A stretch of 15,163 nucleotides of DNA, taken from assembly GCA_022510885.1 (NCBI GenBank), contig JAFLSP010000033.1:1-15163 (forward strand), given 5' to 3'. Below, piece by piece: positions 3,572 to 15,163 of the stretch. Made by a program: the position numbers and the translations under genes. The notes below the pieces were generated by a model. The model ran no database searches, was not told the DNA's origin, and was given only the letters and a program-made list of their open reading frames with translations. Within the stretch, counting starts at the first letter, position 1. Every line of letters begins with the position of its first letter. This DNA is from Treponema sp. Its GTDB lineage: Bacteria > Spirochaetota > Spirochaetia > Treponematales > Treponemataceae.

Positions 3572-4867
3572 ATGACCATCTTTCCCCCCGCGCTGACTGC
3601 CCGCGTTTCCGCATCGCTCGTTCGGGGCAAAGAACGGCTCGCGGGCTTCAATCTGCTCAACAGCCTGTGCGCGCTTGCGGCGCGGGCATGCCGTCGGCTG
3701 GGCTTCCGTGAGGCGGGCGAGCGGCTTGCGGTGCTCATGCAGGAGGACACGGGCATCAACCGCTTCGTGATGGTGCGCTATCTGACCAAAGAGCTGTTCC
3801 TCTATTTTTTTATTGCGTTCTTGTTCTTTTTTATGGTCTTTTTCTGCAACCAGATTCTGCTGCTTGCGGAGAACGTGCTGAAAAAGCGCGTGCCGCTCAT
3901 GGACGTGCTGCGGCTCATCTCGTACTCGCTGCCCTTCATCATCGCGCAGTCCGCGCCCTTTGCGACGCTCGTGGGCTTTCTGATGTGCCTCGGTCGTCTG
4001 ATGACGGAGAACGAGGTGCTTATCCTGCGCGCGTCGGGCATGGGCTACGGCATCATCATCGTCCCCGTCGTCGCCCTGGGGCTGGTGATTTCGGTCGCGT
4101 CGTTTTTCGTGAACGACTATCTGCTCCCGCTCGGCACGCTCAAGTACAATCAGCTGCGGCGCACGATTTTGATGTCCAACCCGGCGATTGAGCTGGAGTC
4201 GAATTCGGTCAAGCGCACGAACGACAAGACGCTGGTCATCGGGCAGGTGAGCGGCACGGACGTGAGCGACCTGATTTTCTTCGACACGGACACGGACGGC
4301 AACCAGCGCATCATCGTGGCGAACGATTCGGTGGTGGAGAAGTCGGCGGAAAGCGGCGTGCTGATGTCCATGGAGATGGACGATGCGTCGGTGGTCTTCT
4401 TCAAGACCGGCAGGCGCGATGACTTTGACGTGCTGATGGCGCGGCACATGCTGCTGAATATCTTTGAGTCGTCGTTTTTCAGCACCTCGTCGCACGTCAA
4501 TCCGAACGAGATGACTTCCTACGACCTGCGCAAGCGCATCGGCGAGATGGAGCGGGAAGAGAACGTTGACCCGAAGAGCCTGAACAAGTACAAGCTGGAG
4601 TATAACAAGAAATTCTCTATGCCGTTCGGCTCGATTTTCTTTGCCGTTCTCGCGATTCCGCTGTCGCTCCTGTTCGGCAAGCACAACGGGCAGACCATCG
4701 GGCTGATAATCGGGCTGTTCATCTCCGTGGCGTACTGGGCGATGATGATTTTGGGGCAGATTTTCGGCTCGCGCAGCGGCACGAACGGCGTGGTTCTGAT
4801 GTGGATTCCGAATGCCGTCATCGGCGTGGCGGCGCTGTTTTTCTACACGCAGTTGGGGCGGCGATGA
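3572..4867 (+). CDS. lptF: LptF/LptG (YjgP/YjgQ) family permease, first copy (LptF-like)
   Basis: Inner-membrane permease of the LptB2FG type, which extracts lipopolysaccharide or a similar lipid and passes it to the LptC/A bridge. 431 residues from the ATG that abuts the dut stop. The family core begins near residue 67 (MVRYLTKELFLYFF). Three N-terminal TM segments lie at about 72-95, 107-135 and 148-175, followed by a polar beta-jellyroll-like periplasmic region (about 190-340). Three C-terminal TM segments lie at about 350-368, 372-395 and 405-428. The first 66 residues are an extra, Arg/Ala-rich stretch with no obvious RBS for the ATG at 3572. Alternative starts are ATG 3738 and ATG 3770; neither has a clear Shine-Dalgarno, although AGGAGG lies at about 3740-3745, 24 bp before 3770. 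It overlaps lptG by ATGA. Not all spirochaetes make classical LPS, so the substrate is uncertain. Confidence 0.88.
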   Translation: MTIFPPALTARVSASLVRGKERLAGFNLLNSLCALAARACRRLGFREAGERLAVLMQEDTGINRFVMVRYLTKELFLYFFIAFLFFFMVFFCNQILLLAENVLKKRVPLMDVLRLISYSLPFIIAQSAPFATLVGFLMCLGRLMTENEVLILRASGMGYGIIIVPVVALGLVISVASFFVNDYLLPLGTLKYNQLRRTILMSNPAIELESNSVKRTNDKTLVIGQVSGTDVSDLIFFDTDTDGNQRIIVANDSVVEKSAESGVLMSMEMDDASVVFFKTGRRDDFDVLMARHMLLNIFESSFFSTSSHVNPNEMTSYDLRKRIGEMEREENVDPKSLNKYKLEYNKKFSMPFGSIFFAVLAIPLSLLFGKHNGQTIGLIIGLFISVAYWAMMILGQIFGSRSGTNGVVLMWIPNAVIGVAALFFYTQLGRR

Positions 4868-13414: not shown

Positions 13415-14833
13415 ATGAGCACGGTTCATTTTGAGACGCTGGGCTGCAAGCTTAACCAAGCGGAAAGCGAGGGCGCGGCGCGCTCGTTCCGTGACGCGGG
13501 TTTCTCTGTCACGATGGAGCCGCTGACCGCCGCCAGTGCCGTGCGGAGCGACGTGTGCCTCTGCGTTGTGAACACGTGCACCGTGACGGCAAAGGCAGAG
13601 CAGAAGGCGCGGCGCATCATTCGGCTGCTGCTGGCAAAATGCCCTGCCTGTGCCGTGCTCGTGACGGGCTGCTACGCCCAGCTCAGCCGCGGCGACATAC
13701 AGGCGATTGACGAGCGGATTTGCGTGCTCGGCGGGCAGAACAAGGGCGCGCTTGCGTCAGTTCCTGCGCAGATGCGCGCGGCGGGCGACCTGACGGGCAG
13801 CGCGCTCGCACGGTTTTTGCAGGCACGCTTTGACGCGCCCGCCGCGCAGTCCGCGTCACGCTTTGCGCTGGCTACGGACACGTTCCTAACCCACAGCCGC
13901 GCGTCGCTCAAGATTCAGGACGGGTGCAACGCTTCCTGCACGTACTGCCGTATCCGCCTTGCGCGCGGAACGTCTGTCTCGCTTGCCGTGCAGGACGTGC
14001 TCGACCGCGTGGCGGCACTGGAGCGGGCAGGGCATGCGGAAGTGGTCATCACGACGGTGAACATCGCGCAGTACCGAGGCGCGTGGCAGGACGGATTCGC
14101 CGATTTTGCCACCTTGCTGGAACTGATGCTCGCGCACACGGGCACTATCGGCATTCGTGTTTCCAGCCTGTATCCCGAAATTGTTACTGATAGGCTTGCG
14201 GACATCATCGCGCATCCGCGCGTTCGTCCGCATTTCCATCTTTCCATCCAGTCGGGAAGCGACGCGGTGCTCGCAAAAATGAAGCGGCCGTACCGAGTTG
14301 CCGCAGTCTATGAGGCGATAGCGCGACTGCGCCGCGCAAAGGGAAACCCGTTCCTTGCTTGCGACATCATCGCGGGCTTTCCCGGCGAGACGGACGAGGA
14401 TTTTGCGCAGACGATGGCGCTGCTCCAGAAAACAGAAATGACGTTCGTGCACGCCTTCCCGTTCAGTGCGCGTCCGGGAACGGAAGCGGCTGCCATGCGT
14501 CCGATGGTTCCCAATGCCGTTGCGCGTGCAAGGGTCGCCCAATTGGAAGCGTACAATCATGATGCAAAGGCTGCGTATATCGGCACGTTTGCCGGTGCGG
14601 AACTGCCCGCCGTGTGCGAGACGGTGCGCCGCGCTCCGTTCGCGCACGATACGCTCATCGTACACGCCGTCACCGACAATTTTTTGCACTGCCAGCTGCG
14701 CTTCCCTGCCAGTTCGCCCTATATTCCCCAGCCGGGAAGCCTCGCGCGGGTCGTTGTCCGCCGTCCGCTTGCCGAAAGCGAGCGGACGGGCGAATGCGAT
14801 ACGCTTGCAGAGTGCTTGCCGGGTACTTTTTAA
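13415..14833 (+). CDS. mtaB: MtaB-type tRNA (t6A37) methylthiotransferase, radical SAM
   Basis: 472 residues. MtaB converts t6A37 to ms2t6A37 in ANN-decoding tRNAs. Domains: N-terminal UPF0004 domain with the auxiliary Fe-S cysteines C11 (ETLGCKLNQAE), C55 (VNTCTV) and C86 (VTGCYAQ); radical SAM domain with the C171-x3-C175-x2-C178 cluster motif (DGCNASCTYCRI); HLSIQSGSD and DIIAGFPGETDEDF later in the barrel; C-terminal TRAM-like region (about 388-455). The LGCKLNQAE start and spacing of cysteines fit MtaB better than MiaB or RimO. One variation: the usual TGV(H/N) segment reads ITTVNIAQYRG. No Shine-Dalgarno precedes the ATG; a CATAAT (13407-13412) is too close to act as its -10. It lies 41 bp after the TPR gene and could be read through from it. 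Confidence 0.92.
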   Translation: MSTVHFETLGCKLNQAESEGAARSFRDAGFSVTMEPLTAASAVRSDVCLCVVNTCTVTAKAEQKARRIIRLLLAKCPACAVLVTGCYAQLSRGDIQAIDERICVLGGQNKGALASVPAQMRAAGDLTGSALARFLQARFDAPAAQSASRFALATDTFLTHSRASLKIQDGCNASCTYCRIRLARGTSVSLAVQDVLDRVAALERAGHAEVVITTVNIAQYRGAWQDGFADFATLLELMLAHTGTIGIRVSSLYPEIVTDRLADIIAHPRVRPHFHLSIQSGSDAVLAKMKRPYRVAAVYEAIARLRRAKGNPFLACDIIAGFPGETDEDFAQTMALLQKTEMTFVHAFPFSARPGTEAAAMRPMVPNAVARARVAQLEAYNHDAKAAYIGTFAGAELPAVCETVRRAPFAHDTLIVHAVTDNFLHCQLRFPASSPYIPQPGSLARVVVRRPLAESERTGECDTLAECLPGTF

Positions 14834-14934
14834 GAAGCGGAAAGGGCTGCGCAAGTTCTCCGCACGGCGACCCGCATACGGTCACGTTCTGTTAGATGAT
14901 TGTTTCAGTAGCGTGTTCGGAATATGCTGCACGC
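14834..14934. other. Non-coding stretch after mtaB with one hairpin
   Basis: No gene or clear intrinsic terminator is seen. GCGTG (14911-14915) and CACGC (14930-14934) form a 5-bp stem with a 14-nt loop that ends exactly where the 22-nt array begins. It may be a diverged leading unit. Confidence 0.4.
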
Positions 14935-15090
14935 CTGTCAAAATTATTTTGACAGGCTGTCCGAAAGATTATAATAGCCTATCAGAAAGATTCTGACAGA
15001 CTGTCATAAAGATTGTGATAGTACTATTAACATAATTACGAAAGTGCTATTAGAAAGATTTTGACAGTCTATGAGAATGGGTATGACGGT
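14935..15090. repeat. Tandem array of palindromic 22-nt hairpin units
   Basis: Seven head-to-tail units with no spacers: 14935-14956, 14957-14978, 14979-15000, 15001-15022, 15024-15046 (degenerate, 23 nt, preceded by one extra A), 15047-15068 and 15069-15090 (degenerate). The consensus is an arm CTRTCAG, a core AAAGATT, an arm NTGAYAG and one variable base. Each unit is itself an inverted repeat. Unit 1 gives a perfect 9-bp stem with core AATTATT; unit 3 gives a 9-bp stem with one mismatch. The core AAAGATT is identical in units 2, 3, 4 and 6, while the arms vary mainly by transitions. The array is much more AT-rich than the flanks. It is not a CRISPR and has no T-run for termination. No ORF with an RBS explains it. 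The function is unknown to me. Confidence 0.85.
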
Positions 15091-15163
15091 CGTGCATAAC
15101 GTTTCGGTACTGCCTTTACGGTGGGGCCTGCGGCATGGGCAAGCGGAGGCTGTTGACATGGTG
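15091..15163. other. Non-coding end of window
   Basis: No gene can be supported. 15091-15112 matches unit 4 of the array at about 10 of 22 positions and could be a decayed unit, but this is weak. A perfect -35-like TTGACA lies at 15153-15158; its -10 would fall outside the window, so no promoter is claimed. Confidence 0.3.

Follow-up and report, generated by a model that had tools for sequence, protein, structure and literature searches.

BOX elements of Streptococcus pneumoniae hold a variable number of tandem inner units within an intergenic element, and ParR-parC partition arrays are regular and spacer-free, with inverted half-sites about one helical turn apart. REP elements, in the accessible part of PMC2817692, have a GTAG or GTGG head and more than 100 copies. 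In Porphyromonas gingivalis, the accessible part of PMC4596501 describes BrickBuilt, in which spacer-free 23-nt tandem repeats are present in 1 to 22.8 copies at 19 intergenic loci, with imperfect units, varied neighbours, leader and tail segments and short terminal inverted repeats (TIRs) of the IS5 type. The same source gives target-site duplications of BrickBuilt as variable or absent, and P. gingivalis is also said there to have 22- and 41-nt tandem repeats (PMC4596501). Here, we analysed a stretch of 15,163 nt of Treponema sp. (assembly GCA_022510885.1, contig JAFLSP010000033.1), called the window below, in which seven abutting units of 22-23 nt each fill an intergenic segment at 14935-15090. 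The features of this region are as follows.

13415-14833, plus strand: mtaB-type radical-SAM tRNA methylthiotransferase gene (Pfam Radical_SAM and UPF0004; NCBIfam TIGR01579 above cut-off)
14928-14933: TGCACG, candidate outer inverted end matching 15091-15096, part of the outer stem in the fold
14935-14956, plus strand: unit 1, centre AATTATT in place of AAAGATT
14957-14978, plus strand: unit 2
14979-15000, plus strand: unit 3, the top match to the unit model (33 bits)
15001-15023, plus strand: unit 4, 22 nt and one extra base
15024-15046, plus strand: unit 5, degenerate, 23 nt
15047-15068, plus strand: unit 6
15069-15090, plus strand: unit 7, right edge, degenerate
15091-15096: CGTGCA, candidate outer inverted end, from the sequence

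The unit starts (14935, 14957, 14979, 15001, 15024, 15047 and 15069) follow at steps of 22, 22, 22, 23, 23 and 22 nt, and most units are separated by one free base only (position 22), with no spacer. TRF reported a period of 22 over 14963-15077 (score 72), and the best 44-nt identity at lag 22 was 33/44, a value to be compared with at most 26/44 in 1000 dinucleotide shuffles at lags 15-30; the periodicity is far above chance. The coordinates, TRF and the shuffles thus bear out the initial annotation, which had described seven spacer-less units of mostly 22 nt. It had also pointed out the exact heptamer AAAGATT in four units, which we find in those starting at 14957, 14979, 15001 and 15047, and an AT-rich island, which agrees with a GC content of 33% in the array versus 55% and 60% in the flanks. 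The stop codon of the mtaB-type gene lies about 100 nt before the array and the contig ends at 15163, about 70 nt beyond it; the named hosts of relatives of the MtaB-type protein, among the matches listed, are Treponema or Treponemataceae, which supports the treponeme origin taken for granted in the initial annotation.

The unit is not unique in its own genome (G000). A second array, on contig C101, lies 36-38 nt after a bifunctional aspartokinase/homoserine dehydrogenase gene, opens like the window array with a unit reading CTGTCAAAATTATT and is broken by a run of 100 N, which is perhaps a scaffold gap. On C68, a PDDEXK_4 gene has a two-unit remnant at its 3′ end, and C283 holds a diverged relative (L017, 3226-3299), a 22-nt array with a different arm whose ATCAGAAAGATTA core on the minus strand is, by eye, related to the window family. 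Unit-model matches in G000 at E up to 1 number at least 16, with 150 of the 695 candidates scored.

The family also recurs in other treponemes. A pattern derived from the window, allowing up to three mismatches, detected, in several same-family genomes, 22-nt arrays whose arms are different, and the symmetric scaffold CTnnCnGAAnnnTTCnGnnAGn matched at least three times in 10 of 274 same-family genomes versus 1 of 274 for the reversed-pattern control, single matches being frequent for pattern and control alike. Among 392 genomes sampled across the phylum, 15 had a match at up to one mismatch: seven matched more than once (each strand counted separately), all belonging to the taxonomic family of the host, and eight, all from other families, had one match on one strand each. 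The scaffold is kept across at least three genera (g1, g36 and g39), and one genome, G252, has arrays on eight contigs. Because several arrays lie at contig ends, the numbers given for units and arrays are minimum values, and diverged family members may be missed, since most same-family genomes gave no array with these patterns. Two further matches of the contig search had no array in the 300-350 bases around them. In G028, a more extensive duplication includes two near-identical array copies (L079 on C2 and L132 on C46, ~93% over 453 nt), and a PDDEXK_2 ‘transposase’ gene is close by.

We consider the window array, with a probability of roughly 60%, to belong to a non-coding minisatellite family that is dispersed between the genes of Treponema and related bacteria and is built on a dyad DNA site. 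Among the three options put forward at first, a repeat family expanded by recombination, or by slippage, fits best, an array of sites for a dimeric protein is possible and a multi-hairpin RNA is disfavoured. Replication slippage or unequal recombination would change the number of copies in both directions, and now and then an entire array would be gained or lost as a block. A protein, of the host or a transposase, may recognise the double-stranded dyad, possibly as one dimer per two helical turns, which would result in symmetric, base-specific conservation.

Wherever neighbouring genes matched Pfam they were diverse, with housekeeping, transport, polysaccharide and defence-like functions (the neighbours include MtaB, ThrA, ArgS, an ABC transporter, DHOD, LysS and MATE; the gene calls are simple ORF picks, for which we give no percentages), and arrays are located after genes, between convergent genes and between divergent genes. 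Two arrays in different genomes follow different methylthiotransferase genes (MtaB at 13415-14833 of the window and MiaB at 101-1495 of L081), which is probably a coincidence; the array beside the methylthiotransferase gene of G267:C239 was ruled out as the ortholog of the window array (29% identity, MiaB versus MtaB). A gene with an HU domain is situated 0.2-2.3 kb from three arrays (L074, L078 and L137). The arrays of L080, L087, L133-L136 and L149 lie near polysaccharide-type genes, with gene and array segments similar between several of them, and cassette exchange may use such arrays as stretches of homology. Given their positions at contig ends and beside polysaccharide genes, the arrays may matter for assembly and genome plasticity.

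Turnover within and between arrays was compared on 36 chains, without the unit filter. Mean identity was 16.0 of 22 positions within arrays and 12.9 between arrays, and in arrays of at least five units the internal units (16.7, n = 105) were more alike than the terminal ones (14.5, n = 40); homogenised units with decayed edges are as expected from slippage or unequal recombination. One orthologous array has seven units in G252:C10 versus two in G212:C187, a difference of 110 nt or five units. Between argS and rpsO, 194 bases separate the flank matches in G252, versus 5 in G212 and 2 in G164, and in the alignment the array forms a clean block of ~194 bp directly after the argS stop codon of G252. 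This array was likely gained in G252, as judged from an unrooted sequence comparison. The argS-rpsO flanks of G164 and G252 are 79-83% identical, and elsewhere the two genomes share a 1.3-kb segment of 97% identity (5125-6422 of L085 and 1-1298 of L140) with two ORFs without a Pfam match, possibly a recent transfer. At another G252 locus (L076) the array begins ~16 nt after homology with G212 stops, at the end of the upstream gene. There, around 4190-4215, the upstream gene, whose G212 counterpart ends differently, seems on inspection by eye to be terminated by a stop codon that lies in the first array unit.

Such a clean ~194-bp difference from two array-free sites would also fit a MITE-type origin as in BrickBuilt, in which the arrays would form the bodies of non-autonomous elements that an IS transposase mobilises. 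This reading, which is the best placed of the alternatives yet still unlikely in our view, can further draw on the 6-bp inverted ends TGCACG and CGTGCA around the window array and on the 23-nt spacer-free repeats, 19 intergenic loci and short TIRs given for BrickBuilt in the accessible part of PMC4596501. However, no common leader or tail was seen, the inverted ends were by eye inconsistent between the arrays, and the single site compared, one filled locus versus the array-free loci of G212 and G164, showed no target duplication.

What the units have in common was determined from 179 units of 36 arrays, including only units with at least 9 of 12 scaffold positions and leaving 4 of 40 chains (L149:3730, L146, L147 and L136) out of the conservation and pairing counts. 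Their consensus, CTnnCnGAAnnnTTCnGnnAGn, is a 22-bp dyad-symmetric site, CTnnCnGAAnnnTTCnGnnAG plus one free base, in which positions 1, 2, 7-9, 13-15, 20 and 21 carry 1.3-2.0 bits and positions 4, 6, 11, 16, 18 and 22 are nearly free (0.2-0.4 bits). The parts conserved across arrays are CT..C.GAA and TTC.G..AG, with three varying central bases between them, so that the core AAAGATT, called invariant at first, is so within four window units and is a local feature when all arrays are considered. Since the 179-unit set was motif-filtered, and extraction by motif inflates conservation at the motif positions, we recounted conservation on 17 arrays that had been found with the window-only pattern, excluding the matched units (84 units). 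Conservation was lower in this recount (e.g., 0.6 bits at position 15), and the profile was symmetric about the unit centre (r = 0.82, versus −0.51 to 0.47 for shifted centres), with 84% G at position 7, a position that the search pattern leaves unspecified. Both unit sets show the base-specific, dyad-symmetric conservation expected of a site for a dimeric protein. Between arrays (35 consensuses), positions 3 and 19 pair in 24/35 versus a mean of 14.7 (2 of 3000 shuffles), and the four variable pairs together pair in 82/140 versus a mean of 61.6 (1 of 3000 shuffles), a co-change that is only suggestive because the arrays are related by descent and are not independent. It fits a protein that reads the dyad and has changed its preference at both half-sites, or slow pairing over the long term. 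A neighbouring 22/23-nt array in G184:C16 (L149, 3730-3893) has the core CTGACGTAAnnnTTACGACAG on the same scaffold, and in several of its units G7/C15 is replaced by T7/A15, a paired change.

Two of these observations count against the minisatellite reading: conservation of the scaffold over at least three genera exceeds what is expected of a purely neutral minisatellite, and the co-change at positions 3 and 19, in arrays that are not independent, could reflect real pairing over long times. In an alternative reading the arrays would be primarily operator- or centromere-like, with a dimeric protein binding each dyad and polymerising along one face of the DNA. A length of 22 bp corresponds to about two helical turns, and partition proteins polymerise on iterated sites. 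The symmetric, base-specific conservation with free positions 4, 6, 11, 16, 18 and 22, the co-changes at positions 3 and 19 between arrays and the regular, spacer-free phasing all speak for such a role. We nevertheless regard it as rather improbable, and somewhat more so than the MITE-type origin, given array contigs as numerous as eight in one genome, beside diverse genes, no par or rep family among the neighbours tested, most same-family genomes without detectable arrays and one array cleanly gained or lost.

Within arrays, pairing between the arms was not kept. The initial annotation had viewed the arms as drifting yet still complementary, a view that is not supported in the own genome, where 81.1% of cells pair in 10 units (six of the window and four of C101) versus 82.0% with the 3′ letters shuffled among units. 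Watson-Crick pairing of positions 3-7 with 15-19 within arrays was seen in 486/895 versus a shuffle mean of 500.7, and hence without excess; in L076, positions 3-19 and 4-18 are mismatched alike in most units. Hairpins across unit borders, which look good by eye in the window, were ruled out as well, pairing of the 3′ arm with the 5′ arm of the next unit amounting to 398/700 over all arrays versus a shuffle mean of 400.0. Since the arms do not preserve their pairing within arrays, we regard a multi-hairpin transcript or a terminator cluster as very unlikely, even though the 176-nt fold is far stronger than that of shuffles (z −6.9), which is expected of any palindrome array; moreover, the same arm mismatches run through nearly whole arrays, as in L076, there is no terminator-like site in 14700-15163, and none of 4227 Rfam families matched at the gathering score.

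Hardly any weight can be given to REP/BIME elements spread by a RAYT transposase, for which short palindromic intergenic units, several per genome, and PF01797 (RAYT/Y1 transposase) hits above the cut-off in five array-bearing genomes (G252, G018, G164, G184 and G212; one hit below it in G146) would speak, and against which stand zero PF01797 hits in G000, an assembly that is 88% complete, the missing GTAG/GTGG head and copy numbers far below 100, both REP features being taken from the accessible part of PMC2817692. PF01797 hits occurred in 61 of 196 genomes. The array-bearing G028, G267 and G120 do not figure in those 61 and possibly lie outside the 196.

The step of the arrays extends beyond the window family. 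Array flanks were where other arrays, with steps of 21-24 nt and different sequences, first came to notice. We surveyed 400 kb of G252 in stretches chosen without regard to arrays (TRF, periods 12-60) and obtained 22 intergenic arrays, 15 of them with a period of 22, 23, 44 or 46. All 8 intergenic arrays with at least four copies have a period of 22, 23 or 44, a strict test that draws on G252 because the comparison sets have no such intergenic array, and 3 of the 18 arrays inside long open frames have a period of 22-23. These 8 arrays form about five sequence families in a clustering that listed only pairs with at least 15 matches; as 119 of 190 consensus pairs within the window family reach 15, distant kin can be missed. 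The window scaffold was not found beyond shuffles in the 15 G252 arrays of these periods (best 6-8 of 12 positions, reached in at least 31/200 shuffles), and most units of the G252 arrays with other sequences are not palindromic. Arrays with a 22-23 bp period and different unit sequences were located, in genomes that also carry the window family, as follows.

L180, L182, L185-L188 and L190: G252 stretches chosen blindly
L073, 5266-5363
L133, 3989-4096
L173, 1348-1447

In 400 kb of G001, of the same genus, 11 intergenic arrays included four of period 23, by eye one sequence family, and none of period 22; 120 kb of G048, from another family of the order, contained no intergenic arrays, and 163 kb of the own genome contained two, with periods of 22 and 42. 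Among 26 intergenic arrays without a window-family flag in 366 kb of otherwise-fetched, biased loci, 13 have a period of 22-23, of which at least two (L017 and L149) look like diverged relatives of the window family. We tentatively suggest, with the balance tilting against it, that treponeme genomes hold a process that builds intergenic arrays at a fixed 22-23-bp step whatever the sequence, with the window family as just one example among many. What fixes the step may then be the footprint of a protein, or a dedicated enzyme, and not the sequence of the repeat. If so, the 22-23 nt arrays of Porphyromonas would be another instance, and with the period fixed while the sequence is free, what sets the size of bacterial tandem duplications would become testable. 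This regularity behind the window family is potentially of more interest than the family itself.

The initial annotation had placed the array in none of the REP, CRISPR, iteron or attC classes, which stands for the classes tested (Rfam, REP/RAYT and CRISPR), none of which matched. Unique spacers, as in CRISPR, are lacking, since the units abut. Plasmid and phage searches gave no match to the arrays, nor did two exact patterns in viral contigs, and literature searches returned no description of these arrays in treponemes, the accessible parts of PMC8040213 and PMC5771137 included. The treponeme arrays resemble REP/BIME in their short palindromic intergenic units in clusters, but are direct and spacer-free, without a tetranucleotide head and low in copy number. 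With ParR-parC arrays they share regular, spacer-free units with inverted half-sites; unlike those, they occupy many chromosomal loci, with no par genes seen beside them. Unlike BOX, they have one unit type, and no ends like boxA or boxC were seen.

Among the described elements that were found, BrickBuilt of Porphyromonas comes closest, being likewise a set of spacer-free 22-23 nt units at several intergenic loci. The arrays are not classed as a member because a constant leader and tail were not found, flank matches among the fetched loci being confined to orthologous or duplicated ones. They differ also in organism, in sequence and in the palindromic unit, a property not reported for BrickBuilt in the accessible part of PMC4596501. 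The treponeme arrays are real and family-specific, a dispersed minisatellite that conserves a DNA dyad. They extend to treponemes a little-studied kind of intergenic repeat described in Porphyromonas, the minisatellite with spacer-free 22-23 nt units, and clean examples of both filled and array-free loci are on hand for comparison.
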